Positions 1-23,625 of a DNA stretch of 23,625 nucleotides are shown in pieces. The position numbers were made by a program, and so were the translations under genes. Each line of letters starts with the position of its first letter. The first letter of the stretch is position 1. The notes under the pieces are model-generated. The model had not been told where the DNA came from. It made no database searches and was given only the letters and a program-made list of their open reading frames with translations. The DNA is from a virus: positions 1 to 23,625 of the IMG/VR virus record IMGVR_UViG_3300017773_000146; one strand, written 5' to 3'.

Positions 1-3000
1 GCTACGCTGTCAAGAAATTCTATAACTTCAGCATCTGAAGCTTTTAAGATTGATAAATCTGTACCAATTATACCGTCTAACTTTAGTAACTTTATTAAAT
101 CATTTAACCATTGCTTAACTGATTTTTTACTAGCTACATCAAGATTTGAATAATACTCAGAAAGTATACCAAAAAGTTCTGCTATACTTTCCTCACTTTG
201 TATACCAGAAGGGTATTCACTAGAAAACTTTTCTAGTTTTTTTAATAGTTCTGGGGATGCTACTTTTTTTACAGATTCAAGCATCCTGTCTGTCAACGCT
301 TTTACTTTAGCTTCATTTATATTTCCACTTAATAATAAAGCATGGAATACTTCGTGTGCAACAGTTCTCTTATTAGATCCTTTTATGTTGATGTGTATCT
401 TTGCTCCACCTTCTACTTTTTCATAAAACCCTGAAGATAAACCACCTGTAGCTTGCATAAAAGATGCATTACTATCATGCATAATAAACTCTACGTTAGG
501 TAAAATTTTACGTAGCGCTTTTTTTGCTCTTCGTACTTGCTTTGATACCCTTGATTTTTTAGTATTAAATTCAATCTTCTCTCCCTCCGTCATTGGAGCA
601 TCTTCCTCTATTTTTACATCTTCTTGCGTTGTTGGAGCTTCTTCTACTTGGGTTGGTTCTTGATCCTCCTTAGTATCTGTATCTGTTTCTTCTTCGGTAA
701 CATCTTCAGTTTTTCTAAGTTTGTCAAATTGCTCTGTTTCTTTTTTAAATTGTTCATCTTTTTGTAATTGTTCGTTTACTAATTCTTGTTGCTCAGGTGT
801 TTGTATTTGTTTTAATTGTATTTGATACGCTGCGTCTACAGCATCAGAACCCTTCAACATTATAGTTTTGCCATCGTCAGATTTTAAAGAGACAGCTTTT
901 ACATTTCCATCATCATCATATTCTACACCTTGATTTTCTAAATTATCTTGTATGTTGTAATCAGTATTGTCTACTGATATTTTACCTTCAGGTGTTATAG
1001 ATATACGCTCTTGTTCTATTGATAAACCTGGAACATTAGTGTCCATTAATTCTTCAGCAACACCTAACTCGTATATTCTGTTTGTACCTTTCTCTTCAAA
1101 AACAAGTTGTTGACCATCTATATAAGTTTCTCCAACCAATGTTTCTCCATCTCTAACTAAAGTTGAAGGTCTATTAATAACATCACGAACAATTGTAGAA
1201 GGAGCATCTTGTTTTTTCTTTTCTTGTGCTTTCTTTTCTTCTGCTTTCTTTTCTTCTACTTTTTTATTTTGTTTTATTTTTTTCTTTATATTTTCTTCAC
1301 TTCTATATTTGTTTTCTTGTTTGAGTTGTTCAACAGCAATAGCTCTTTCAGATACATCTTTATCGTTAGAAATTATTTTAAGTTCCTCATCAATCTCATT
1401 TAACCTATTTTTAACATCGTCAGGTATTAATGATTTATCAGAGTTTTTAATAGAGTTTTCTAACTTTGATTTTTCTAATAACAAATCAAAAGAATCAGTA
1501 ACATTTAATGTAGAGCTTGGTATAGTCTTCAATATTTTAACTACTTCTTCATGTTTATTTAAAACATTTTGTGCTTCTTGCTTAGAAATACTTCCAGCTA
1601 ATATTTGAACCTTTAATCGTTTAGTTAAGTTAGTTCTAACGCTAGGATCATTAGCCATATAATGCATACCTTTTAAAATTTCTGCATCAATTTTACTTGA
1701 CCTAACACCATCTCTCATTAGCCCTATAGAATTTCCAAACCCTGACATCATTCCACCACCAGCAGCCTCCCAAAACGCTCCTTCCCCTCCTCTTCCTAAA
1801 GTTTCCATAGAAAAGAAATCTTCTGGATTTTCATATTTAAATGCAGATTCTCCACCTAATTTATTGTAAAGACCTTTTACACCTATACTAGAAATCTCTT
1901 GTAAGAATCCAGTTTCACCTTCGGTAATTGCACCACCAACAATTCTAATAGCTCTATTTGCTATTAAAGAATTTGTTTCAGCTAAAATAAGCTGGTTAAA
2001 TTTTCGTTGGGTCATTTTCCCTGTAGCTTTACCAAGCACACTTTTTATTACTTTTGCTGCAAAAGATTTAGCTGCAGCATTTTTTGAAATTAAAGAAGTA
2101 AAACCAAATCTTTCAAGCGCACCTTGAATTACACCTATAGTTGCTCCTGTCACAAGTAAATCTGTCATAGGCATATCCTTAAAGTTAGGGTCATCTATAA
2201 CTTCATCCACAACAGCATCAAAAGATTGAGCAAACAAAGCAGCAAAACCAGCAGGACCACTAAGAAGTGTAGCGCCCATTGCTGGTAAAGACCTAAGCAC
2301 ACCTGTTCCAGCTGTAAAAAAGCCACCTCTCTCTTCAGCTGAAAAATATTCATCAGTAACAGGTGCTCCAATATTTTCTGTAAGAGATCCTGTTATTGTT
2401 TTTTTTATATCAGTTAAAAGTTGTTTTCTTCCTTTTTCTCTATCAGCATATCCAACAAAATCTCCAACAGTGCCTCCGAAAATTTTTTGTACAACGGGGT
2501 CTGTAGTTCTTTTATATTGTAACATTAAATCACCTAAATCATATCCCGTTACAGCTAAATAAGTAGCTCCACTAGCTATATCCTCAAGGCCTGCTAAAAG
2601 AGAATTTAAAACAGCACCTTCTGTCGTACCTATATTTTCATCTCTTTCTATTTTTCCTTTTATAGCAATTCCAGATGCTACGTCTATACGTTTTTGTAAG
2701 TTCATAAGGGCCTCACCTTTAGGAACATTTTTATTAAATTTTTCTATAGATTCTTTATAGTCTTCTCGTTCTTCTTTAGTAAGGTATCCTTTCTTTTTAT
2801 ATAACTCTTCGTAACCTTTTACTTTATCATTATAAAAATTTTGGTCTACGTTTATATTGTTAATTTGATTACTAATGTTATTTTGAAAATCTTGATAAAT
2901 AACACCGTCTACAGAAGCTCTTGGGTTTGTTAGTTGGCTAACCATAGCTTGTGCTTCATCTTGATTTTTACCAACTCTATTGTTCCATATATAATTAGCA

Positions 3001-4280
3001 AGCATCCCTGCTCCCATTATTTCTGTTTCTTTTCTGAATGGATCTAAATCTACAAGTAATCCCTTCTTGTCAAACTTAGAATAAACTCTCATAGCATCTC
3101 CGCCACTAGTTTCTTCAGCAAATATTCCATATTGACTATAAGTGTCGTTTATTAACTTTACTACCTCCTCTTCTGATTTACCTATTAGCTCTGGGTTTAT
3201 TACTTTTAAAAAGTCACCTCTTTCTTTTTTTAATTTTTCTATTTTAGAAAATTGAGAATCAGATTGTATTTCAAAATTTCTTTTTTCTTTTTGTTTTGTT
3301 TTTTCTTCATCTGTAAGAAAATACCTGTTTAAATAATCTATTCCTCCATCTCCTTTTACCTCTGCCCATTTTTTAGAGCCTGGAGTTTTTCTATACCATA
3401 AACCATCTACGTTTTTGTATTCATTGTCTTCTTTATCTGGTAATCCTGTATATATTTTACCTCCTGATAAATTTGACTCTACTGTACTTTCTTGTTGTAA
3501 TTTTAAATTTGCCTCTCTTAATGTGCCCTCTAAAAAATAATTATTTAAAGCATTTATACTGCCTTTATTTGTTATTTTATTAAACGAGCCATCTCCATCT
3601 GCTAACTCTCTATACCAATCTCCATTTTTTGTATAATAACGATTTTTTTCTTTACTAGGATAGCCATCAAAAACTACATTTCCTTGTAGTATATTTTCCT
3701 CTTCTTTACTTAACTTTATGTTAAGCTTGTTTTGAAGATACGTATTGTATTTTGGTTTTTGTTTTTCTAGCTCTATACTTTCCTTCTTTTCCTTTCGAAT
3801 TCTATCTTGCTCACTTTCACGATTTAAATCACTTGGATTTAGGTTGTATTTTTTATTAAAATATTCTGGGTCATCTGTTTGAGTATAAGCGCCAGTTATT
3901 GGGTCTTGGACAAATCCACCAGCCTCCATCTTTTCTTGTTCTTCTCTTCTAACCTCAGCTTGCTTTTCTTCTTGTTTTTTCTTTCTATATAAATCTAGAA
4001 CTTCCTCTTGTTTTTTAGGTTCATATTTTTCTTGGGGTACTTCTTTACTAATGTTTATCTTATCTAAGATACTTGAACCATCCGAAGGCTGATCCTTCTT
4101 TTGAGCTTCTGTATCCGATGTAAAATTGATGCTTGCTTGTTCTGAAAGAGATGCAGTAGTTGTTGTAACGACTTTTTTTTGACTTTTTTTTTTATAATCG
4201 TCAATAACACTTTGTATAAGCTCATCACTCTCACCGTTTTCAACCATTGTTGCAATTAACTTTTTAAGTTCTTCGTCCAT
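1..4280 (-). CDS. Giant virion/ejection-type protein with zincin metallopeptidase motif (3' end beyond window)
   Basis: The frame is open for 1426 codons from an ATG at 4280 to the left edge without a stop, so the C-terminus is missing. Visible parts are a basic N-terminus and two copies of a module of about 73 residues, with G-x-P-x-K-E near residues 206 and 279, each followed by a WYR and ending in LN-x-YFL. A Gly/Ala-rich hydrophobic stretch lies near 650-725, with another small-residue patch near 837-852. A Lys/Glu-rich segment lies near 994-1025 and an acidic linker near 1194-1233. HEVFH follows at 1309-1313, preceded by a GFY...IHIN strand and followed about 54 residues later by EESIAEL. 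HExxH plus a downstream Glu is the zinc site pattern of gluzincin-like peptidases in phage 'polyvalent' proteins. As last gene after the 215- and 522-aa proteins, it sits like T7 gp16, so I infer an internal protein ejected with the DNA that cuts peptide bonds in the cell envelope or in virion proteins. Substrate unknown. Confidence 0.85.
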   Translation of the reverse strand, partial: MDEELKKLIATMVENGESDELIQSVIDDYKKKSQKKVVTTTTASLSEQASINFTSDTEAQKKDQPSDGSSILDKINISKEVPQEKYEPKKQEEVLDLYRKKKQEEKQAEVRREEQEKMEAGGFVQDPITGAYTQTDDPEYFNKKYNLNPSDLNRESEQDRIRKEKKESIELEKQKPKYNTYLQNKLNIKLSKEEENILQGNVVFDGYPSKEKNRYYTKNGDWYRELADGDGSFNKITNKGSINALNNYFLEGTLREANLKLQQESTVESNLSGGKIYTGLPDKEDNEYKNVDGLWYRKTPGSKKWAEVKGDGGIDYLNRYFLTDEEKTKQKEKRNFEIQSDSQFSKIEKLKKERGDFLKVINPELIGKSEEEVVKLINDTYSQYGIFAEETSGGDAMRVYSKFDKKGLLVDLDPFRKETEIMGAGMLANYIWNNRVGKNQDEAQAMVSQLTNPRASVDGVIYQDFQNNISNQINNINVDQNFYNDKVKGYEELYKKKGYLTKEEREDYKESIEKFNKNVPKGEALMNLQKRIDVASGIAIKGKIERDENIGTTEGAVLNSLLAGLEDIASGATYLAVTGYDLGDLMLQYKRTTDPVVQKIFGGTVGDFVGYADREKGRKQLLTDIKKTITGSLTENIGAPVTDEYFSAEERGGFFTAGTGVLRSLPAMGATLLSGPAGFAALFAQSFDAVVDEVIDDPNFKDMPMTDLLVTGATIGVIQGALERFGFTSLISKNAAAKSFAAKVIKSVLGKATGKMTQRKFNQLILAETNSLIANRAIRIVGGAITEGETGFLQEISSIGVKGLYNKLGGESAFKYENPEDFFSMETLGRGGEGAFWEAAGGGMMSGFGNSIGLMRDGVRSSKIDAEILKGMHYMANDPSVRTNLTKRLKVQILAGSISKQEAQNVLNKHEEVVKILKTIPSSTLNVTDSFDLLLEKSKLENSIKNSDKSLIPDDVKNRLNEIDEELKIISNDKDVSERAIAVEQLKQENKYRSEENIKKKIKQNKKVEEKKAEEKKAQEKKKQDAPSTIVRDVINRPSTLVRDGETLVGETYIDGQQLVFEEKGTNRIYELGVAEELMDTNVPGLSIEQERISITPEGKISVDNTDYNIQDNLENQGVEYDDDGNVKAVSLKSDDGKTIMLKGSDAVDAAYQIQLKQIQTPEQQELVNEQLQKDEQFKKETEQFDKLRKTEDVTEEETDTDTKEDQEPTQVEEAPTTQEDVKIEEDAPMTEGEKIEFNTKKSRVSKQVRRAKKALRKILPNVEFIMHDSNASFMQATGGLSSGFYEKVEGGAKIHINIKGSNKRTVAHEVFHALLLSGNINEAKVKALTDRMLESVKKVASPELLKKLEKFSSEYPSGIQSEESIAELFGILSEYYSNLDVASKKSVKQWLNDLIKLLKLDGIIGTDLSILKASDAEVIEFLDSV
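342..356 (-). other. HExxH zinc-binding motif (HEVFH) in the giant virion protein
   Basis: These five codons read His-Glu-Val-Phe-His at residues 1309-1313. They follow a short hydrophobic strand containing IHIN and begin a hydrophobic helix (ALLLS). The Glu pair at residues 1363-1364 or Glu1368, in EESIAEL, is the likely third ligand region. The surrounding pattern is typical of zincins and hard to explain by chance, but catalytic activity is inferred only. Confidence 0.7.
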
Positions 4281-4293
4281 CTTATTTCTTTTT

Positions 4294-5862
4294 CTATTTT
4301 TCTAATTGCTTAAGATAATAAGCTTTTTTTTCAGCATCAGTCATACCTTCTGTTGGCTTATTACTTCCCCCTCCCATTTCTGCGTCATATACACCTCTAT
4401 ATTTACCCATTTTATCTACGCTAAGTTCATTTAAATATGTAGCGAAATCTGCCTCTGTTTCTAATACTCCTATACGACCTCTATACTCATCAGAGCCTCT
4501 TTTTAAATTAAGTCTTTCATCTTCAGTAGGAGGTTTGTAAATAACAAACTTTCCGTTTTCAATTTTTAACTGATAGCCAGGTTTCAATAAAGCCTTCATT
4601 CCAGAAGGGTTTTTATCGTCATATGCCTCTCTAAATATTTTATAGCTATCTGGTATTTTACCGAAGGTGATTTTTGATTTGTCACTATCACTCCCGCTTT
4701 TTCGTTTATATGGCCTTGATTGTTTGGATGAAACCGTCATATCTACAGCTCTACCTACCATATCTTTAGCTTCTTGTAAAGCTTCTTTCCAACTAGGATC
4801 ATCTGTATCTATAACTAAATTATTTGACCCATCAGGCTTCCATTTTATTAAGAATTTTTCTTGGTCTTTTATAAATTGCTCTTCTTCTTCTTTGGTCATT
4901 TCTCTACCTTCAACATCATCATATTCAAAATCTCCATTTGGGAGTTTTCTATCTGTTTTTATACTATATCCATTTGACAAAGCAATCTTTGCTTCATCTA
5001 ACCTTTCTTGAATTATTTTTTGCTTCTGCTCCTCATTAAAATATCCTTCATAATCTTGAAAATATTTATATTCAGTTAGCTCACCACCACCATTATCTGC
5101 AAGTACACTATAAGCTTTTTCAGGAGTATTTGTTAGTTGGTGCATTAAAGATGCTTTACTAGAGTCAAATAAACCTTCTTTTCCTTTAGCTATATCTGTA
5201 GTTACAACTCCAGTTTTTTGGTCTACAGTTGTATTACCTTTCCAATTTTTAGCTACTTCTGCAACTTGGTCACTTACTTTTACTAATACAGCCCTTAAAT
5301 TTGAAGGGTTATTTAAATTTTTAACATTTTGTTTATCTATTATATTATTTTTTTCATCTCTTTTTATTGTGTAACCCGTACCATCTAAACCAGTATAATA
5401 TTCAACGCCATTCATATCAGCATTTTGTGCAAAATATTGCATTTTTAAAGCACTACCATCACCCGTTTTCCCTTCCGCATCTTCTTTGTTGAATAAGTCT
5501 ATAGTTTTGTCATAGTTTAAACTTGTGGTTGTAAATGCTCTATATGAATCTTCTGCGTTATTTTTAAATAATTTATACTGCTCTGCTGTTATCTCTCCGT
5601 TTGCAAGTTGTTGGTTCAAGCTAAACAATTGATTTTTAATACCATATAAACCATTAGTAGCAACCTCTTGATAAGATTTGTTTTGACCAATAGCAAAATT
5701 TGACATAGTCCTAAAAGTTTCATTAGCTTCACTTTGTATCTTTTCTCTTTTTTCTCTACGCTTATCTTGAGCACCTGCTATAGTTCTAGATAGCCCAGCA
5801 AATAAAGAACCTAAATTAGGGCTAGGCGTTATAATCATATCTTCTTCTTCTTCTTCTGCCAT
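4294..5862 (-). CDS. Internal virion protein candidate, 522 aa (T7 gp15 position)
   Basis: I do not recognise a catalytic domain. The N-terminus is very acidic (five Glu in residues 3-7). A predicted helical, highly charged segment follows (SRTIAGAQDKRREKREKIQ near 25-43), and the protein is rich in Gln, Asn, Lys and Glu with no signal peptide or membrane segment. The central part is soluble and mixed in character, and the C-terminus ends in a Lys-rich helix. It starts 12 nt downstream of the 215-aa gene and stops 14 nt before the start of the giant protein, so the three are surely co-transcribed. Order and size class resemble T7 gp14-gp15-gp16, where gp15 forms part of the DNA-ejection tube across the periplasm. 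That role is inferred from position alone. It could also be another virion cargo protein. Confidence 0.75.
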   Translation of the reverse strand: MAEEEEEDMIITPSPNLGSLFAGLSRTIAGAQDKRREKREKIQSEANETFRTMSNFAIGQNKSYQEVATNGLYGIKNQLFSLNQQLANGEITAEQYKLFKNNAEDSYRAFTTTSLNYDKTIDLFNKEDAEGKTGDGSALKMQYFAQNADMNGVEYYTGLDGTGYTIKRDEKNNIIDKQNVKNLNNPSNLRAVLVKVSDQVAEVAKNWKGNTTVDQKTGVVTTDIAKGKEGLFDSSKASLMHQLTNTPEKAYSVLADNGGGELTEYKYFQDYEGYFNEEQKQKIIQERLDEAKIALSNGYSIKTDRKLPNGDFEYDDVEGREMTKEEEEQFIKDQEKFLIKWKPDGSNNLVIDTDDPSWKEALQEAKDMVGRAVDMTVSSKQSRPYKRKSGSDSDKSKITFGKIPDSYKIFREAYDDKNPSGMKALLKPGYQLKIENGKFVIYKPPTEDERLNLKRGSDEYRGRIGVLETEADFATYLNELSVDKMGKYRGVYDAEMGGGSNKPTEGMTDAEKKAYYLKQLEK

Positions 5863-6959: not shown

Positions 6960-7694
6960 TTAAGGGTAACTTTTCATTGCATCCGAAGAAACTGTAAATA
7001 ATTCTACAGAATCTTTACTATCACTTGTTAATTTTACCTCCATATAAGAACCTCTAGCTCCATAAGACTCTGCGGTACTATCTTTTACAGCAACAACAAA
7101 ATCTCCATTTGCGTTTGGTGTAACAGCGGCAGCGGATACTGTAATTGTTGTAGAAGTTAAACTAGCTATGGTGCCTACCTTTTGTAAAGCAACATTACCT
7201 GGGTCAGCCGATATATATATAGTGTCATTTACCATTACTGAAGATGGTATAGGATTTGCAAATGTAAAAACTAAACTGTTATAGGCAGCTACACCTACAC
7301 CTTGTGTTGACATAGCTTTCAAATCAACAGTATCTGCCGCTCTTCTTATGTGACCATAATACTCTCCCTCTTTAAGATTAAAGTAGCTACGCTCTACAAC
7401 ACCTGTAGTAAAATCAGTTGTTATATCTGCCTTCCAAGCTACATTACTCCATAACGCTAAAGTTTTATAAACTTTATTATCAGCAACGTCTTGATTGAAG
7501 ATAGGAGTTATAGTAGATGTATACTGGTCCCCATAATAATTATTTCTAACACTATTTGTGTTGTGTTTATATAGTTGCCCATATTTCCATGTGTACAAAG
7601 AATTGTTAAGACCTATCATCCAGTCTGGTTTATAAGAGTGAAATGAAGTCCATCCTTTTGCTGCTACCGAGTAGCTTATTGTTTCTACAGCCAT
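6960..7694 (-). CDS. Tail protein domain of the 'FHSYKPDW' type, 244 aa
   Basis: The N-terminal half has a strongly aromatic signature: GWTSFHSYKPDW near residues 14-25, then LNNSLYTW, GQLYKHN and, further on, RNNYYG. This pattern is familiar, from memory, from the C-terminal part of the large tail (stabilisation) proteins of crAss-like and other Bacteroidota phages. The C-terminal half is Ser/Thr/Val-rich and beta-predicted. Here the domain is a free-standing gene, separated from the 1555-aa tail protein by the adhesin and the glycosyltransferase-like gene. The likely role is a structural tail component that contacts the hub. The gene begins 9 nt after the preceding stop, with a TAACTTTGTA motif overlapping that stop. 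Confidence 0.75.
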   Translation of the reverse strand: MAVETISYSVAAKGWTSFHSYKPDWMIGLNNSLYTWKYGQLYKHNTNSVRNNYYGDQYTSTITPIFNQDVADNKVYKTLALWSNVAWKADITTDFTTGVVERSYFNLKEGEYYGHIRRAADTVDLKAMSTQGVGVAAYNSLVFTFANPIPSSVMVNDTIYISADPGNVALQKVGTIASLTSTTITVSAAAVTPNANGDFVVAVKDSTAESYGARGSYMEVKLTSDSKDSVELFTVSSDAMKSYP

Positions 7695-11600: not shown

Positions 11601-11926
11601 TTACCAGAAACAACAGCGACAGGTACCTCTGTAGCTAAAGAGATAACAGTATCTTTATCTTCCTCTGTATACAGTATGTCTGTTACAAGATAGTAAAGCT
11701 TATTGTTCATTGATGGCTGTAAATCTTTAACACCTGACCCAGCTCCAATAGTGCCTGTCTTCATTGTTACAGTTGCTCCATCGTAGGGTATTTCATTAAT
11801 ACCGCCATTGCCTCTTCTTGGAGAGTAAAGAGAAAATCCAGTGTTTTTATTTAGAACAACATTATCAAATGAATATTCTGAGCTACCTGTATATACAAAA
11901 GTTTGATTTGTTTTAATTTCTGACAT
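8630..11926 (-). CDS. Modular cysteine-rich tail fibre/adhesin with Ig-like domain and poly-Thr linkers, 1098 aa
   Basis: The N-terminal 260 residues are a beta-rich unit, presumably the virion anchor. After it come repeated modules. Type A modules (a YHDG or YYHNG core, a Cys near each end) lie at about 264-490, 643-725 and 836-918, with a related one at 1022-1098. Type B modules (four Cys, ending C-x-x-C) lie at 749-817 and 929-994. An Ig-like putative (He_PIG-type) segment, with LPRGMKFD and GELSGKP, lies at 578-638. Poly-Thr runs separate the C-terminal modules. Residues 311-443 are a domain shared with the 1555-aa protein and interrupt the first A module. There are 24 Cys, mostly at conserved module positions. 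The start overlaps the previous stop as TAATG. Role: probably receptor binding or cell-surface adhesion. The modules are low in similarity to anything I can name. Confidence 0.8.
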   Translation of the reverse strand: MSEIKTNQTFVYTGSSEYSFDNVVLNKNTGFSLYSPRRGNGGINEIPYDGATVTMKTGTIGAGSGVKDLQPSMNNKLYYLVTDILYTEEDKDTVISLATEVPVAVVSGKYEGSFVFSNPNQYKHLYLIWDYTDSMGTGAASYSGGLVTKNIDVDFGTGIGLTGIDYDVTDTPARFIIKNGTATLVDTGYVGLNSTANYNALIAAGVSADDIKLSNPYNGSVNNGIGRALIQKTTDSLEGQIVAYSPLASTKWALNTITPSLKSFFIDTDGKATSTLACAECPTTTYYHNGVNTLPQIGDKIYNDSSGISTSATATIIGTAALNNASGTSMILRNADGSTVTFTTDPTLNFGDVSASVGDHAWRVNTRDISGGDEVRKATQALHIAAMAAIAAGELDMTVVPTTNTGTQTSFTLTQTTHGTAGNTAITLITGATANGETSFTGGGESAIFNGDGKYYLSDSTTCAGAPVVFATWLLIDSSGIVTNTGSCNCTEFAVPFISQGDITLLSSTDSNINLLASGNPTSFTLTSSCNNFDVFGGDNGVVYTYTDCNGTSITDIVGRKQKSSVCSSTTPSITSGSGTVTNVGVCISETLPRGMKFDTSTGELSGKPQETGTYPITFTATNCKGTSAAKTIDINVVNSYSFTGFGIGSDNPMDTGDAACALAPPLIIMYHDGSARVPDLNDRIYRNPNGSNGFVGNNQWYYINNSTYSIKVDSSGRVIEKNECPASVTTTTTTTSTTTTTTIPATGSYFTATLCSDGTTTAKLHYPSGSSVPSATNIVKTVDGNCWTIAATASGSYPYQTIDTTGSITYASCDVCLGATTTTTTTTTTTAVPISSFTMDTDGFTTALRACLNGGSPFTTYYHDGSGSYPTTNDFVFTDSGGTTPFDGSSLWRKDSNGTAEVLHISSTGQILDVQVCSGVTTTTTTASVKYYDSTPCGGGSTTVLKFTGLDDIANGTVVKGANGSCYTITGVSSSSSETTTIVFEYDNCNDCTGITTTTSTTTTTTTSTTTTTTTTTLAPLTEVLLRFSADSSTVCTGVIGTYYVDGPVGGSGKKVWLNNNSTGVPTSGSYIQIGSSNAYHWNSGAGAWRSDGVTCP
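8873..8938 (-). repeat. Poly-threonine linker 4 (longest)
   Basis: About 22 residues (997-1018 of the adhesin), all Thr except two Ser, encoded by a mixture of ACT and ACA codons. It joins the second B module to the C-terminal module. The codon mixture makes it a length-variable triplet tract open to slippage or recombination. Confidence 0.85.
9146..9163 (-). repeat. Poly-threonine linker 3 (short)
   Basis: Six Thr codons (residues 922-927) between the third A module and the second B module, directly after the C-S-G-V that ends the A module. It is the shortest of the four linkers. Confidence 0.8.
9434..9466 (-). repeat. Poly-threonine linker 2
   Basis: Eleven consecutive Thr codons (residues 821-831) between the first B module, which ends C-D-V-C-L-G-A, and the third A module. 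Confidence 0.85.
9698..9739 (-). repeat. Poly-threonine linker 1
   Basis: Fourteen residues (730-743) of Thr with one Ser, between the second A module, which ends in E-C-P, and the first B module. Confidence 0.85.
10598..10996 (-). repeat. Duplicated ~130-aa domain, copy in the adhesin
   Basis: Residues 311-443 run from TATIIG to SFTGG and match residues of the 1555-aa tail protein at roughly 80 per cent by eye, including long identical blocks such as FTTDPTLNFGDVSAS and AAIAAGELDMTVVP. The DNA copies differ at many third codon positions. The pattern ends in the FTGG that is familiar from a beta-domain recurrent in marine phage tail proteins. Function unknown. Confidence 0.9.
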
Positions 11927-14900
11927 TATCTTTTATCTTTATTTCCTATTACCCAAGGGTGTACTATTATTTCTTCTCCTGGTGCTTGTGTAACAACATA
12001 AGTAACTGTTTCTGATCCACAAAATGTTATAGTTATTGTTGCTGTTCTAACAGCACTAGTAGTATTATTAGCAACTTGCAAAAATACATTTTGATTACCA
12101 AATCCTGAGGTAGGGCAGTTTGTTACCCAACCAGAACCAGCACTGTACTCTATACCTACTGTCCAAGAAGTATTACTAACTATTGTAAAATCTTCACCAT
12201 GATTACTTTCTATGCCAACCATATCGGATGTATTAGAAGGGTAGTCTCTACCATAAACACTTAGTAAAAGACTGCATGGTCTAGATGTTTCTTCGTTAGT
12301 AGCTAAAACATATGTTTGAGTGCTTGGATCAAAAACACCTAATTTTTGTTCTTCTGAATTGTCGCGCATTAAATTTCTAAAGTAGTTTCTCATTCCTAAA
12401 TTAGATATCGGAACAATGCTAGTTCCTTCTATTGTTAATACAGCACCTCTTCTTTCATCTGCCCAATAAAAACTATTACCCCACTCTGCAAAGCTTTCTG
12501 GATTAAAACTTATACCCCACTCACCTGTATCAGAAACTTGATTTCCTAAAACTTGTGGTGTAGTAGTAACAGTACCACCACCAACAGCGTCACTTAAAAG
12601 GTTTTTACCATACAAAACTCTACTAACCTTATCCTCTTGAAGAACAAGTAAGTCAGTATTTCTTGCATGTATTTTTTGAATACTACCAAACTCTAAATCT
12701 AAATTCTTAAAGTTAACTATAGAAAGATTAAATTCATTCAGTCCATTTGTAGATGTTTTATCTCTATAAGTACTACTATAAGTAAGCGATGCTTCTTTGC
12801 GTTGCTTTTCGTATCCCTCAATATTAGTGCTAGCTCTTGGACTATAATCTAAGTTTGTTAAGTTAAACGCATCTCTTATTCTATCTGATTCTAAACCATT
12901 ACCAAAAGAATATGCATTATAAGTGCTATTTTGATTTGTTGTTGGGTTTATTAATATTTGAGCTGCTTGAACCGCAGTTTGGTCTTTTTCTATTAGAGAA
13001 TCATGATGAAACCCTATTTGACCAACAGAGGCAGCACCACCACCAGGATACGCAAGGTTTATAACTACATTGTATTTATCAATAACCTCTATTACAGTAT
13101 GTGTTCCTGCTAACGCTGGAGTTACAGTGCTATGTACTTCGACTTCATCTCCAGCTTGAAATGTGTGAGGATAAATATCACTTGGTGTTGTACCTGGTGT
13201 CACTTGACCTAAAACAGTATAAGTTCCAGCTATTGGATTAAAAGCATTTATAGGCACAGAACGACCAGAAAAACCTTGGTATTTCCAAAGAACTTTATGT
13301 ACCCCACCAATTACATCATATGTTCTACTTGTTTCATGATATATATCTGCATCTGAAATTACTGGAACTGTTTCGCATTGAGCAATAGAACCACTATTCT
13401 GTTGTATTGTTATTTTAACACTAAATCCTGTACTTACTTGCGAAAGCAACCCCAAACCACCAAGTAGACCATTAACATAACCTGTTTGAAGTTCATGAGT
13501 TAATCTAGTTCTACCAGAAACTATCATTTTAACTGGATATTCTTTTGTATCATTTGTAAGTCCTGAATTTGTTAAAACATTACCTACAAAAGTTCCACCT
13601 TGAGTTATCTTTCCTAATACACCTCCATTATTATTAGCACTATTAAACTCGGACATTGCTCCTCTTCTAAAAGTAACTGTTTCTGGCCCAAAAGGTCCAG
13701 GACCATATGGAAAAACAGCTTCTGATGAACCTGGAATAGGAACCCCTACACTCCATTCAAAAAGCTCAAAAGCACCAGATTCTATAAACCACTCTTCTAT
13801 ATTTTCATACTTAGCTTCAGAAGGTGGAAATGTTATAGGAGCTTGGTTTGCCACTGAAGTACCACTAAATCTCATTGTTATCACAGCTCCTATTTCTATA
13901 GCTTTATCTTTTTCAGGATAAATAGGGTCATTATCACTAAAAGTAGGCCCAGGAAATACCGCTGCACCACACCACTGATCAGCTAGTAGCTGATTACCAG
14001 TTTTAGGTATGCCTTCACCACCAAAATAATTACCTGTAAAATGACCATCACTTCTGCAAGATATTTTATATTGATCACCTGGAACCCAATTTGTAGCAGG
14101 TGAAAAAAATAATGTTAAAACAGTATAGGCACCATATTCTATAGTTTCTTGTCCACCGCCAGCAGGTATATTTTTATAAATCCAATTAGAACTTGGAGTA
14201 GCAGGTATTTCAAATGTATATTTGAATTCTGTAGAACTAATAACTTCAACTGTCAACCTTAAATCTCCAGGTCCTGTTGCTGGAGGAGTGTACAAATTAT
14301 TATTAGCAACTGAAATTAAATTAGCACCGCTGCCAGTTCCTTGATTATCTGGATAATATATAGGGTCTTCAGCTACTGCAAACCTATGATGAACAGGATA
14401 GTCCTCTTCAGGTATTACTGGTACAGGTGGAACATTTTGATTATTAGGGTCGCTTGCAGGAGGTAATATAACTGGTGGTAAACTACAATCTCCCGAATAA
14501 ACATAGTCAGTTGAATTATAACTAGCAAATTCATTTGCATCATCTACCTTTATTTTAAAGTATAATCCTTTATCGACATTAATACTAACCACAGAAAGAC
14601 CACCTGTTAAAGAAGGTGTTGTTGTTGTTGTTATTGGACCTGTTTGCACATCTACTTCAAGAACCTTATATTTTTTATTACTTAAAGTAGGCCCATTTGC
14701 TGTTGATTTAAATATTATATAATCACCAGCTCTTACTTTATCTCTATCAAAATCATTTATTTTAAAGTATCTAAACATACCTAAAACATAAAACTTTACT
14801 GGAAATATATTGTAATATATACCTTTATTTTGTTTTATAACAAGCCTATAACACGTTGCAAAACTTGGTGGTTTATTATTTATCTCTACAGATAAACTGT

Positions 14901-16593
14901 TTCCTGTTATAGATTGACTTGGTGGAATATATACTGTAGGAGAGGCATCGTTCTCTGGAGCTGTCAATACAGTAGTAAACCTACCATATTTATCTCCATA
15001 TTGCACCCCTATCTCGTAATCTCTATCACTTCTAAATGTTTGTATAGCCTTACCACTTTCTGTTTCTTTAGAGACATATTTTACAGAATAATCTGGTGTT
15101 ATTATTACACCTGAAGAGTCTACTATATCATATGATTGCTCATAATTACCATATACAATTCTAGTATCTATAAAAGATTGAGCTTTTGCTTTTAGAGGAA
15201 CATTATCAAATAATCTTCCTAATTGACCTGAAGGTAAAGTTCTATATGTTTTATTGTTAGAAAATCTATAAGTATGTACATTGTTGTTTGGAATACTTAG
15301 TGCTTTTTTATCAAAACTTTCTACTACCGATATGACAGTACTTTTAGTGTCACGCATCAGTATCTCAACTTTTTCAACAAATTGACTACCTGTCTCAAAA
15401 GATATATCTACCGCATTATGACTATTCAACATACCTTTATTTTCTCCAACACCAAAATCTAGTACATAAGTCGAAGGTATAAAGGCCGCTCCAGAAAATG
15501 GAGACATTGCACTATATTGATTGTCTACATATTTAAACCTATATGAAAACTGAACAAATGTTTCTTTTAAATTATTTTCTTGATTTCCTGTTGCAATCAT
15601 ATCAATCATAGGAGCGTTTAAAGGCGGCTCTAATATTACTGATATATCGTCATCAATTCTATTATCATCTATATCATAACCTTTAGCTCTAGCAATATTT
15701 ATTCTTCTAGGTGGATTAAAATTATCAGTCCAATATAAAAAACCATCTACGTAATTTATACCAGTAACATAATAATCTTGACTAAAATTAAGCTTGCTTG
15801 CTGTAGCTGGATTGTTTTTGTTTGACTGTAGTACTCTAGTAATCTTATTAGTTTTTTCATTATACTCAAACACACCATCAAGTTTGTCTGACGCAACTAA
15901 GTAATAAATTAAATTATCAGATTCAAAAGTTACCGCTCCAATAGTTCTTGCGTTTTGTGTATTATCAACTCCACCAGTAAATGAAGAGGGTCCAGTAGCT
16001 CCAGTCATTAAAGTTATTGGTGTGTTACCAATAGTACCATCATTATTTTGAGTAAGAGTAAATTCTGTTTGTGTACCTGTATTAGTAGCAGGGACAACGG
16101 TCATGTCCAATTCTCCAGCGGCTATCGCTGCTAATACAGCAATATGTATTGCTTGGGTAGCTTTCCGAACTTCATCACCACCACTAATATCTTTAGTGTT
16201 AATTCTCCATGTATGGTCTCCAATACTTGCAGATACATCGCCAAAATTCAAGGTTGGGTCTGTGGTAAATGTAACCGTAGAGCCATCAGTATTTACTAAT
16301 ACTAATGATGTTCCATTAGCATTGTTTAATGATGCTGCACCTACTATTGTAGCTGTAGCAGCTGTTGAAACACTTAATATTTCCCCTGTTACATTATTTA
16401 AATCGCCATCTCCAGTTACGGGATCCCCTACTCGTTCATTACCCTTTTTATTTCTAACAGTCCCAGCATCATCTCCCTCTGAGTGTATAATATCTACATT
16501 TAAAGCATCACGATAAGATCCGTTAGGCACTAGACTTTCATCTAGGTCCTTGTTCATCGTACCTTTAAGAAAATTATTAGTTAATTCTGCCAT
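11926..16593 (-). CDS. Large tail protein, crAss-like 'stabilisation' type, with C-terminal BACON-like domain, 1555 aa
   Basis: The N-terminus (NNFLKGTMNKDLDESLVPNG near 6-25, then YRDALNV) and the FLYWTDNFNPPRRINIARAK stretch near 285-304 recall, from memory, the large tail proteins of crAss-like and related Bacteroidota phages. It is probably a beta-propeller-like hub or shaft protein. Residues 77-208 are the domain shared with the adhesin, inserted between the N-terminal signature and the propeller-like part. The C-terminus, about 1468-1538, reads as a BACON domain: SNTSW, GWVTNCPTSGFGN, an RTATITIT strand and a VVTQAPG end. The expected 'FHSYKPDW' tail domain is missing here and is found in the 244-aa gene. 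The start shares one base with the preceding stop (TAATG). Confidence 0.8.
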   Translation of the reverse strand: MAELTNNFLKGTMNKDLDESLVPNGSYRDALNVDIIHSEGDDAGTVRNKKGNERVGDPVTGDGDLNNVTGEILSVSTAATATIVGAASLNNANGTSLVLVNTDGSTVTFTTDPTLNFGDVSASIGDHTWRINTKDISGGDEVRKATQAIHIAVLAAIAAGELDMTVVPATNTGTQTEFTLTQNNDGTIGNTPITLMTGATGPSSFTGGVDNTQNARTIGAVTFESDNLIYYLVASDKLDGVFEYNEKTNKITRVLQSNKNNPATASKLNFSQDYYVTGINYVDGFLYWTDNFNPPRRINIARAKGYDIDDNRIDDDISVILEPPLNAPMIDMIATGNQENNLKETFVQFSYRFKYVDNQYSAMSPFSGAAFIPSTYVLDFGVGENKGMLNSHNAVDISFETGSQFVEKVEILMRDTKSTVISVVESFDKKALSIPNNNVHTYRFSNNKTYRTLPSGQLGRLFDNVPLKAKAQSFIDTRIVYGNYEQSYDIVDSSGVIITPDYSVKYVSKETESGKAIQTFRSDRDYEIGVQYGDKYGRFTTVLTAPENDASPTVYIPPSQSITGNSLSVEINNKPPSFATCYRLVIKQNKGIYYNIFPVKFYVLGMFRYFKINDFDRDKVRAGDYIIFKSTANGPTLSNKKYKVLEVDVQTGPITTTTTPSLTGGLSVVSINVDKGLYFKIKVDDANEFASYNSTDYVYSGDCSLPPVILPPASDPNNQNVPPVPVIPEEDYPVHHRFAVAEDPIYYPDNQGTGSGANLISVANNNLYTPPATGPGDLRLTVEVISSTEFKYTFEIPATPSSNWIYKNIPAGGGQETIEYGAYTVLTLFFSPATNWVPGDQYKISCRSDGHFTGNYFGGEGIPKTGNQLLADQWCGAAVFPGPTFSDNDPIYPEKDKAIEIGAVITMRFSGTSVANQAPITFPPSEAKYENIEEWFIESGAFELFEWSVGVPIPGSSEAVFPYGPGPFGPETVTFRRGAMSEFNSANNNGGVLGKITQGGTFVGNVLTNSGLTNDTKEYPVKMIVSGRTRLTHELQTGYVNGLLGGLGLLSQVSTGFSVKITIQQNSGSIAQCETVPVISDADIYHETSRTYDVIGGVHKVLWKYQGFSGRSVPINAFNPIAGTYTVLGQVTPGTTPSDIYPHTFQAGDEVEVHSTVTPALAGTHTVIEVIDKYNVVINLAYPGGGAASVGQIGFHHDSLIEKDQTAVQAAQILINPTTNQNSTYNAYSFGNGLESDRIRDAFNLTNLDYSPRASTNIEGYEKQRKEASLTYSSTYRDKTSTNGLNEFNLSIVNFKNLDLEFGSIQKIHARNTDLLVLQEDKVSRVLYGKNLLSDAVGGGTVTTTPQVLGNQVSDTGEWGISFNPESFAEWGNSFYWADERRGAVLTIEGTSIVPISNLGMRNYFRNLMRDNSEEQKLGVFDPSTQTYVLATNEETSRPCSLLLSVYGRDYPSNTSDMVGIESNHGEDFTIVSNTSWTVGIEYSAGSGWVTNCPTSGFGNQNVFLQVANNTTSAVRTATITITFCGSETVTYVVTQAPGEEIIVHPWVIGNKDKR
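11980..12192 (-). other. BACON-like domain in the tail protein
   Basis: Residues about 1468-1538 show the BACON order: an N-terminal strand ending SNTSW, a W-x-x-x-x-P-x-S-G turn, an RTATITIT strand and a closing T-Q strand. The family is typical of Bacteroidota surface proteins and of crAss-like phage tails, where it is thought to bind glycans or mucin-type surfaces. Confidence 0.7.
15967..16365 (-). repeat. Duplicated ~130-aa domain, copy in the 1555-aa tail protein
   Basis: Residues 77-209 correspond to residues 311-443 of the adhesin. Both copies open with S-T-(S/A)-A-T-A-T-I and close with S-F-T-G-G, so the boundaries are sharp. Most differences are conservative or silent, which indicates selection on the protein. 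Confidence 0.9.
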
Positions 16594-20982: not shown

Positions 20983-22122
20983 TTATTTATTTTTACTTTT
21001 AATAACCAAGCGATTTCCGCTACCAGGATTTACAACACGATATTTTTGTGGTTCAGATACATTCTGTTGTGTTGATTTAGCTTTCATATCTACATTCTTT
21101 GCTTCCTTTGCATCTTTTGTTATTGCATCGGCAGCACCTTTTTCGTATGCAAACTTAAATAAAGCGTCTGGATCCATTGCTGCATTCAAAGCTTTATGAT
21201 AAGCGTTAGCATCTTTAAGTAGACCGTCTTTATCTAGATGTCTATTTATAAAATTCATTGCATCAGATTGAACGTCTTTAACCTTATCAACATCATTTAT
21301 TTTAAAAGTAACTTTCTCTTCTCCTACTTCGTATCCGAAACCTTCGAAATTTTTAGAGAAAAGTTCGTTTGTCTTTTTAGAAAAATGTTCCGACCTTCTT
21401 GTTATGTCTTCCTTGTTTGCTTCTTGTTGCTTGGTACTTTGCTTGTACTGCTCGAAAAGTTCTTTATCTTCATTAGAAATAAAACCGTCTCTTGACTCAA
21501 GAGGTGCTTTATATTTTTCCTTTTGATCATTAAAGAATTTTCTTGCTTCTGCAAGCATTTTCTTTTTTGCTATTTTTTTACTTCGTATTTCTACATCGTC
21601 ATCTATCTCATCATCAAAATTAAATTTTTGCTCCATTTCAAATGAAACATCATCTCTATCAAACTCAGGATTTTGTGCAGATATATACTCAGATATAATA
21701 GCATCTGGAGAATCGTTGTCAAAATTTCGATTAAGTTTAACAAAATCTTCAATTCCTCTTCCTGTCTCCTGTTTATATTTACGTAAGGTTTCTAAATCTT
21801 CAGACAACTCTTTTTCTACAACTTCTTTTTGTAGCAAGTCATCGTAAGATAATTCTTCCTTACCGAATTTTTTTCTAATATGTGAAAGAACGATTTCGTC
21901 ATCCAACTCTACAGGTTTCTCTTCGACAACCTCTTCCTTTTCCTCCGTTTTATTTTCTGCTACTGGCTCCTCTTCTGTTTTATCTTCTGCTAGAGAAACT
22001 TTTGCAATTTCTTCTTTTTGTTCTGTGCCTTGCTCTTCCTCATGCTTAGCAACTAACTCTTGTTCAATTTCTTGTGTTGACTTTTCTATAGCGTCAACAG
22101 ACTTTACTGATTTAAATTCCAT
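20983..22122 (-). CDS. Putative scaffolding protein, 379 aa
   Basis: The first 75 residues are almost entirely Glu/Lys/Val/Thr (EEEQGTEQKEE, TEEKEEVVEE and similar) and should be disordered. The rest is charged and helical, with a C-terminal basic tail (NRLVIKSKNK). A Glu/Lys-rich, coiled-coil protein without globular motifs between the portal and the major capsid genes is the classic position and composition of a tailed-phage scaffold, which binds the capsid protein inside the procapsid and leaves afterwards. No protease motif is visible. It starts 40 nt after the portal stop, behind a TACCTTTGTA motif, and is probably co-transcribed with the capsid gene up to the terminator. A minor capsid protein is the alternative. 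Confidence 0.65.
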   Translation of the reverse strand: MEFKSVKSVDAIEKSTQEIEQELVAKHEEEQGTEQKEEIAKVSLAEDKTEEEPVAENKTEEKEEVVEEKPVELDDEIVLSHIRKKFGKEELSYDDLLQKEVVEKELSEDLETLRKYKQETGRGIEDFVKLNRNFDNDSPDAIISEYISAQNPEFDRDDVSFEMEQKFNFDDEIDDDVEIRSKKIAKKKMLAEARKFFNDQKEKYKAPLESRDGFISNEDKELFEQYKQSTKQQEANKEDITRRSEHFSKKTNELFSKNFEGFGYEVGEEKVTFKINDVDKVKDVQSDAMNFINRHLDKDGLLKDANAYHKALNAAMDPDALFKFAYEKGAADAITKDAKEAKNVDMKAKSTQQNVSEPQKYRVVNPGSGNRLVIKSKNK

Positions 22123-22161: not shown

Positions 22162-23625
22162 CTAACCAAATGATTCAAGCCCAAAACCATCTAATGTATC
22201 TTCATTAGATTCAAAATTTACAGGCGGTGTGTTATCCTTTCTTTGTCTTATTAAAGCGGACTGTTGTGTTGATTGTTTATCAAGTCTTCTATCTTTTCTA
22301 TCTTCTTTTTCTCCATCTCTTTTACTTAATCCTTGTACTTCAACATCTTTTAATTGCATGTTATAATTGAACTCCTCCTCCATAAGAGATTTTTTAGCAT
22401 CTACCTCAAACTCTAACTTTCTTATATCTGCGTTAGCTTGAGCCTCTACAAGCTGCATTTTACCTTGAATTATTGCTTGTTCTGTTTGCATTTTTGCTTG
22501 AGCTGCTGCTTGTTGTGACCTCATATTTGCATCAGACTGAGCTTGTATTTCTTGCATTTTTTGCTGTTTATCTCGCTCAAACTTTTGTCTACGCTTTAAT
22601 TTAAGCAACTCATTGCCCATTTTAAGGTTTTTACAGTTACGTATATCTATAGCATCTTCAAGTTCAATAGCGTTCTTAGATAAAGCTTGTTGAATATTTT
22701 GCTCTATCAATTGCTTTTCTTCTTCATCTGGAGATACATCTATAAATATTCCAAATGATGCTAAATATAATTTTTTAATATCATCTAAAATAGACACATT
22801 ATACTTACCTATTTGATTTGCAAATTCTTCCTTATCATCAGAAAACTCTAAAATATCTGAAATTCTAAGAGATAGAGCTTCTGCTAATTTTTTAGTTACA
22901 TGTAAACTAGAATTTAATATATGTCTTGTAGCTGTATTTGAATTCAAAGCTGCTAACTTTTGAACCCCAACAAGAGCGTTTGGATCTGGTGTAGAAGCAT
23001 CTCTAGATTCATTAACACCAGTTACATCTCTTATCATATTTAACCAATGATCGTATTGTCTTGTTAATGCTAGTAATTTTGATTGACCAGAATTATTATT
23101 TAACTCTTGTATTGGAACCCTTGCATTATTAAACTCACCCTCTCCTGTATAACTTCTACCTACAACACTACCTGTAGCAAAATACATATCTATAGCCGCT
23201 TGTGCATTATATGTACCTCCGTTACCTAAATCAACCTCATTAACTCCATCAAGGTCTAAAAATATTCCGTCAGGAACCATTTTTTGTTGTATCTGTTGTA
23301 TTTTTAAGTCAGTCATAGCGATTAAGTCAGCATACTTAACCATTCTTTTAACAGTACTATCTATATTACCTTTATACATTCTTGGAGCTGAAGCTATATA
23401 ATTAGGTACTGTCCGTTGAAACTCAGACTCTGGCCTTACCATGTTTCTCATTAGCTCCCACTTTAGTATTTTATTGGAACCTAATACCATAGCACCATCA
23501 TACCATACATCTATTCTTTTTTCAATTCTTTCAAAAAACTCAAACTCACCCTCTGGATTAAAGCTTTCGTCTCTTCTTATCATTCTCTCCCCACCGTTTT
23601 CAAGTATTTTCTTTTTATATATAAA
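22162..23625 (-). CDS. Portal protein (5' end beyond window)
   Basis: An ATG exists at 23583, but the same frame stays open for 14 further codons to the right edge, so the true N-terminus is probably outside the window. Motifs: DVWYDGAMVLG, KWELMRNMVRPE, MVKYADLIAMTDLK and IRDVTGVNESRD followed by NALVGVQKLAALNSNTATRH. These match, from memory, the C-terminal half of portal proteins of crAss-like phages. The C-terminal third is a long Gln/Ala/Glu/Lys coiled coil, then a basic, Asp/Arg-rich tail. Portals form the dodecameric DNA gate at one capsid vertex. Its place directly before scaffold and capsid fits. It ends with TAG. Confidence 0.85.
   Translation of the reverse strand, partial: FIYKKKILENGGERMIRRDESFNPEGEFEFFERIEKRIDVWYDGAMVLGSNKILKWELMRNMVRPESEFQRTVPNYIASAPRMYKGNIDSTVKRMVKYADLIAMTDLKIQQIQQKMVPDGIFLDLDGVNEVDLGNGGTYNAQAAIDMYFATGSVVGRSYTGEGEFNNARVPIQELNNNSGQSKLLALTRQYDHWLNMIRDVTGVNESRDASTPDPNALVGVQKLAALNSNTATRHILNSSLHVTKKLAEALSLRISDILEFSDDKEEFANQIGKYNVSILDDIKKLYLASFGIFIDVSPDEEEKQLIEQNIQQALSKNAIELEDAIDIRNCKNLKMGNELLKLKRRQKFERDKQQKMQEIQAQSDANMRSQQAAAQAKMQTEQAIIQGKMQLVEAQANADIRKLEFEVDAKKSLMEEEFNYNMQLKDVEVQGLSKRDGEKEDRKDRRLDKQSTQQSALIRQRKDNTPPVNFESNEDTLDGFGLESFG

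Follow-up and report, generated by a model that had tools for sequence, protein, structure and literature searches.

A putative zincin-type metallopeptidase domain in a giant polyvalent-type protein of a podovirus with a crAss-type muzzle

The late operon and its nearest relatives

The window analysed here is an entire viral record, a contig of 23,625 b. It contains a single minus-strand late operon, beginning with a portal gene and ending with a giant ORF. The portal protein (22162..23583, −; phrog_6547, E 1e-68, from profile position 349 onward) is possibly cut at its 5′ end. Next comes an E/K-rich protein of 379 aa (20983..22122, −), scaffold-like and flanked by the portal gene on one side and a probable capsid gene on the other. 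The order continues with a 480-aa head protein (phrog_13704), other head and tail proteins, a crAss-type muzzle protein of 1,555 aa (11926..16593, −; PF25731, E 2.3e-13; phrog_14478, E 2.9e-180), further genes for structural and uncharacterized products, a 522-aa protein and finally the giant ORF (3-4280) at the contig end. The C-terminus of the muzzle protein (residues 1467–1537) resembles the Viral BACON_2 domain (E 3.1e-5; 24.2 bits, cut-off 25). A separate 244-aa protein (6960-7694, −) is similar to the crassvirus muzzle C-terminal domain (PF25729, E 2e-13); since the long muzzle gene at 11926-16593 is also present, this protein would represent a split or duplicated muzzle end.

Judged by portal and muzzle, the closest named phages are podovirus ctfjg026 (57% portal identity), Elemovirus, the Pervagoviridae and Pachyviridae of Cellulophaga and Tenacibaculum, and Maribacter phage Panino. 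By these sequence matches the window phage is a podovirus of the Pervagoviridae/Pachyviridae/Elemovirus kind, equipped with a crAss-type muzzle, and its hosts would be aquatic Bacteroidetes-type bacteria.

Motifs of the giant protein and their conservation

The giant ORF (3..4280, −) is open at the left contig end and supplies the N-terminal 1,426 aa of a late/virion protein of polyvalent type. Three motifs are found close to the break: (i) IHIN at residues 1295–1298 (387..398, −), in the strand preceding the putative active-site helix; (ii) the candidate active-site motif HEVFH at residues 1309–1313 (342..356, −) and (iii) EESIAEL at residues 1363–1369 (174..194, −), which starts 54 residues past H1309. 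Recomputing the coordinates placed all three where the original prediction had described them. The 1,426 residues include only 6 His and 148 Glu, for which 0.0026 HExxH motifs are expected by chance, and four of the six His fall within residues 1268–1313. The region directly before the zincin domain (residues 1031–1210) is conserved with two relatives (L037 and L074; 37–42% identity over the joint region) and matches no known family. A polar or charged linker before the zincin is not pronounced in the relatives, where this stretch is only slightly enriched (0.56 versus 0.52 polar).

The whole 1,426-aa protein has no match in Pfam, PHROGs or the PDB (none at E<=1 in the latter), and a scan of IMG/VR viral contigs with the single full-length sequence yielded no relatives. 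The zincin domain alone matches the giants of Elemovirus (38% identity, E 1e-31), and an alignment of the window and Elemovirus domains recovered 126 IMG/VR relatives, of which 80 were kept. H1309, E1310, H1313, E1363 and E1364 are identical in all 71 distinct relative domains found in a first scan seeded on VAHE[VI]FH, a seed that cannot reveal loss of HExxH but does leave the invariance of the two Glu as an informative result. In the IHIN motif, the two isoleucines and the asparagine are nearly invariant. A further scan took the EE..AEL block as its seed and tested HExFH from the other half of the site: 73 of 75 distinct loci keep it, as HEVFH, HETFH, HEAFH, HEIFH, HESFH or HELFH, and the other two are cut by the edge of the contig or of the extraction window. 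Because either seed covers some of the site, the corresponding scan by itself overstates how well that portion is conserved. Loss of the motif in relatives, which would have counted against the original prediction, was thus not seen within the family. The zincin is also the single strongly conserved block of the giants (32 of 37 columns at >=90%), with a top-residue fraction of 0.60 versus ~0.32 in the remaining protein. Genome-contig scans with the domain sequence and with the profile found no cellular relatives and none elsewhere outside phages, and no bacterial origin could be traced.

This pattern bears on whether the domain could have been retained for structure, in packaging or docking, without proteolysis. 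A parallel exists in N4 vRNAP, where the region containing the MPTase is needed for encapsidation though the protein is packaged uncut (PMC5512222). We nevertheless consider a structural role improbable, because the catalytic and ligand positions are all invariant, which a domain kept for structure alone would not require. From the alignment and the model described below, the predicted Zn ligands are H1309, H1313 and either E1364 or E1363, with E1310 as the likely general base.

Fold and family placement

Residues 1214–1426 (3..641, −) were modelled with AlphaFold2 from a 72-sequence alignment, giving a pLDDT of 83.9 and a pTM of 0.67. The predicted order is a helix, a strand, a helix, two strands, the HExxH helix, two more helices and a further one with the Glu pair at its start, which agrees with the zincin core of the MPTases in polyvalent proteins (PMC5512222). 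In model numbering, IHIN belongs to strand 79–85, HExxH to helix 93–104 and the Glu pair of EESIAEL to helix 150–166; the latter two are predicted to be the pair of helices that a zincin uses.

A profile search of the PDB placed IrrE first (E 0.011; PDB 3dte), aligned over the strand and the HExxH helix. The likeness to the Peptidase_M78/IrrE family (PF06114) consists of a strand, an HExxH helix and a Glu helix, but the score of 15.7 bits is below the gathering cut-off of 22, and the HE[VIALTS]FH ... EE..AEL.G.L domain scores below threshold with every Pfam and PHROG model. Zincins dominate the top rows of a structural comparison with the model (Z 4–7), although some unrelated helical bundles score alike, and the best match to a single zincin in Foldseek is weak (E 0.35). 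Structural neighbours in the BFVD include LPD and ART-PolyVal phage proteins. The original prediction read this stretch as a zinc metallopeptidase, and the family search and structure prediction support this: HExxH and the Glu are conserved, the model provides the corresponding helices and IrrE is the top PDB profile match. Assignment as a zincin-type metallopeptidase domain is thus supported at the level of sequence and model.

Architecture of the giants

Complete giants in the relatives range from 1,917 to 3,694 aa. They carry the zincin 0.41 ± 0.06 of the way along, and they continue for roughly 1,600–2,000 aa past the point where the window copy is cut. Because the zincin sits ~0.41 along these proteins, more than half of the window giant probably lies beyond the contig end; at full length it would be ~3,000 aa. 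Among 15 relative giants, LPD23 is found in five, ART-PolyVal in two (and also in the giant of the L011 contig) and the DUF6782 metallopeptidase in two; DUF7178 is present as well. The 80 loci include 13 distinct sequences with a second zincin motif, HE[IVL]QH, which aligns with the first zincin across the active site (hhalign prob 75). It lies downstream of the first (L015, L025, L032, L049, L050, L051, L054, L063, L064, L073, L076, L078 and L079) and often has AGEVEARNVEKR further along. We also considered a virion RNA polymerase and rejected it; D.D[GI]D is present in 4 of the 35 representative giants, and its place in the protein is scattered.

Phage polyvalent proteins combine unrelated enzymatic or LPD domains in a very large protein encoded among virion genes. 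Such combinations are found in the relatives, in the part of the protein before which the window copy ends, and the window giant shares its strand with portal, muzzle and tail genes. Based on the LPD23, ART-PolyVal and second zincin domains in its relatives, the window giant belongs by sequence with the polyvalent proteins. Zincins are the commonest domain of this class and have been sorted into 12 clades (Iyer et al. 2017, PMC5512222). The polyvalent zincin MPTases, including those of P1 DdrB and N4 vRNAP, resemble the window domain in having HExxH and a Glu on a later helix, within giant multidomain proteins encoded by late genes, and the class shares ART, LPD23 and further zincins with the relatives of the window giant (PMC5512222). 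The window domain differs in falling under every Pfam and PHROG threshold.

Probable virion location and the syntenic giants

The giant is the last gene of the tail module, and giants lie beside the same module in Cellulophaga phages phi40:1 (gp101) and phi18:3 (gp123), Tenacibaculum phage Gundel_1 (gp074) and podovirus ctfjg026. The phi40:1 and phi18:3 proteins, at the same gene position, are virion proteins by annotation from experimental MS/MS proteomics; the Elemovirus records label their giants structural but do not state the basis. The N-terminal part of the window giant matches ctfjg026 with an E-value of 1.6e-17, and its similarity to the phi40:1 giant (hhalign prob 74) is suggestive at most. 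By analogy with these counterparts, the window giant is likely to be in the virion, from which we infer that it would be injected with the DNA.

The Elemovirus protein (Flavobacterium phage vB_FspP_elemoA-F, 3,667–3,694 aa), 38% identical over the zincin, also follows a neighbour gene (~450 aa) and has its own versions of the motifs, HEIFH and EEKLSEL. It differs in a DUF3293 match upstream and in an N-terminal part without clear similarity to that of the window giant.

The syntenic giants do not all carry this zincin. HExxH is absent from those of phi40:1, phi18:3 and Panino, although portal and muzzle are common to these phages and the window phage, and in Gundel_1 and ctfjg026 the giant carries another zincin-like motif, HEFGH. 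The HEFGH giants (Gundel_1, L166:31233-38681; ctfjg026, L169:42-11621, −, the latter with two such motifs) point to module exchange at one locus. The three giants lacking HExxH are short (1,691–1,935 aa), consistent with the zincin being tied to extra cargo, though with n=3.

The distribution is difficult to reconcile with a protease of head maturation acting during assembly, a role that the original prediction had left open. An S78 prohead protease was not found in 10 long relative contigs, which leaves room for such a role of the zincin; this negative concerns S78 only, as the S77 search had no positive control. The scaffold-like 379-aa ORF, however, occupies the expected place after the portal gene, and a search of it with Pfam and PHROG profiles found no protease family. 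The zincin itself is outside the known prohead-protease families and is not kept throughout the syntenic group, being missing from the phi40:1, phi18:3 and Panino giants despite the shared portal and muzzle. We therefore regard head maturation as very unlikely.

The neighbouring gene and the transglycosylase question

Adjacent to the giant is the 522-aa protein (4294..5862, −), a probable partner ejection protein; of the 71 relative loci examined, 57 have a homologue adjoining the giant. Its predicted fold has a pLDDT of 75 and no PDB match, and the window copy is a short version lacking a peptidoglycan-hydrolase tail. In some zincin-bearing relatives, longer upstream neighbours end in peptidoglycan-hydrolase-like domains, with matches to phrog_26675 'endolysin' (E 4e-8 and 6e-9) and phrog_873 'endolysin' (E 2.6e-10), and to SLT and Glucosaminidase below cut-off. 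These longer proteins (L012:4226-6835, L015:4577-6904, L023:5120-7450 and L050:4817-7213) have hydrolase-like or exchangeable C-terminal tails. Some of the longest are outside the homology set and are neighbours by position, so that homology to the 522-aa protein holds for the others only. The tails appear exchangeable, being drawn from at least three peptidoglycan-hydrolase-like domains or, in L069 and L083, an S74 chaperone tail.

According to the original prediction the zincin stands in place of a transglycosylase, as carried by T7 gp16. The comparison with T7 is a loose one, since the nearest relatives are ctfjg026, Elemovirus, Pervagoviridae/Pachyviridae and Panino. Both giant and gp16 are large and probably ejected with the DNA, but they have no sequence match, and the window giant and 15 relative giants contain no transglycosylase and no SLT or lysozyme domain. 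In the relatives, moreover, zincin and peptidoglycan hydrolase coexist in the same genomes, and the zincin is therefore no stand-in for a transglycosylase.

A related proposal is that the zincin is a cell-wall peptidase that opens a path for the DNA through peptidoglycan peptides, replacing the gp16 activity. In its favour, the zincin sits in a probable ejection protein, and the window's own proteins have no hydrolase domain recognisable with Pfam or PHROGs. Hydrolase-like tails are nonetheless encoded in the adjacent gene of zincin-bearing relatives, the giant has a polyvalent architecture and the domain does not match M15, M23 or NlpC/P60. To our knowledge, these usual peptidoglycan peptidase families use no HExxH helix. 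We consider cutting of peptidoglycan peptides highly improbable.

A model for the function of the zincin

The reading that we favour, at somewhat better than even chances, is that a competent-looking zincin resides in a packed and injected polyvalent protein of ~3,000 aa and most likely cuts that protein. Residues ~1214–1426 would fold as a zincin whose catalytic competence is suggested by its intact site. Synteny and the MS/MS-detected positional counterparts suggest that the giant is expressed together with the tail genes, enters the head and reaches the host by injection along with the DNA. The zincin would then cleave the giant itself, as Iyer et al. 2017 proposed for the class (PMC5512222), and the cut, made while the protein is being ejected or later, would release the variable modules at the C-terminus (ART, LPD23, a second zincin) from an N-terminal part that serves in delivery.

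Three points speak for self-processing: the fairly fixed position of the zincin, its strict conservation beside exchangeable modules and the precedent of P1 DdrB (PMC5512222). The main counter-example is N4 vRNAP, which has a zincin-like HExxH domain yet is packaged unprocessed (PMC5512222; PMC12633501), and on this example any cut would come after ejection. The three syntenic giants lacking HExxH imply in addition that cleavage is not universally needed.

Ranked next after self-cleavage is an injected effector protease that would cut a host protein, such as a defence or transcription component, soon after entry. An effector role has also been proposed for the zincins of polyvalent proteins (PMC5512222), and giants carrying the zincin also carry ART-PolyVal, a typical effector domain. 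An effector facing varied hosts would be expected to vary and move, however, whereas the zincin is the most conserved part of the giant across very divergent phages and stays near ~0.41 of its length. We thus hold this alternative to be unlikely, though worth keeping in mind.

Implications

This kind of protein has been known since 2017; the window domain falls below all Pfam and PHROG thresholds. A literature search on zincins in crAss-like phages found no paper on this zincin family. As no Pfam or PHROG profile matches the domain above threshold, such giants are annotated merely as 'structural protein'. In 2017 zincins were predicted to process injected polyvalent proteins; this family makes a clear example on which to test the prediction, and its group includes cultured phages (Elemovirus, on Flavobacterium sp. 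BAL314). At one locus, related phages encode a giant with the window-type zincin, with another zincin-like motif or with none, which argues against an essential role in assembly. In a fuller form that we advance tentatively, as a possibility short of an even chance, an unnamed clade of zincins, spread widely among aquatic Bacteroidetes-type podoviruses, would dice an injected polyprotein of ~3,000 aa, within the host, into a delivery piece and exchangeable C-terminal effector pieces.
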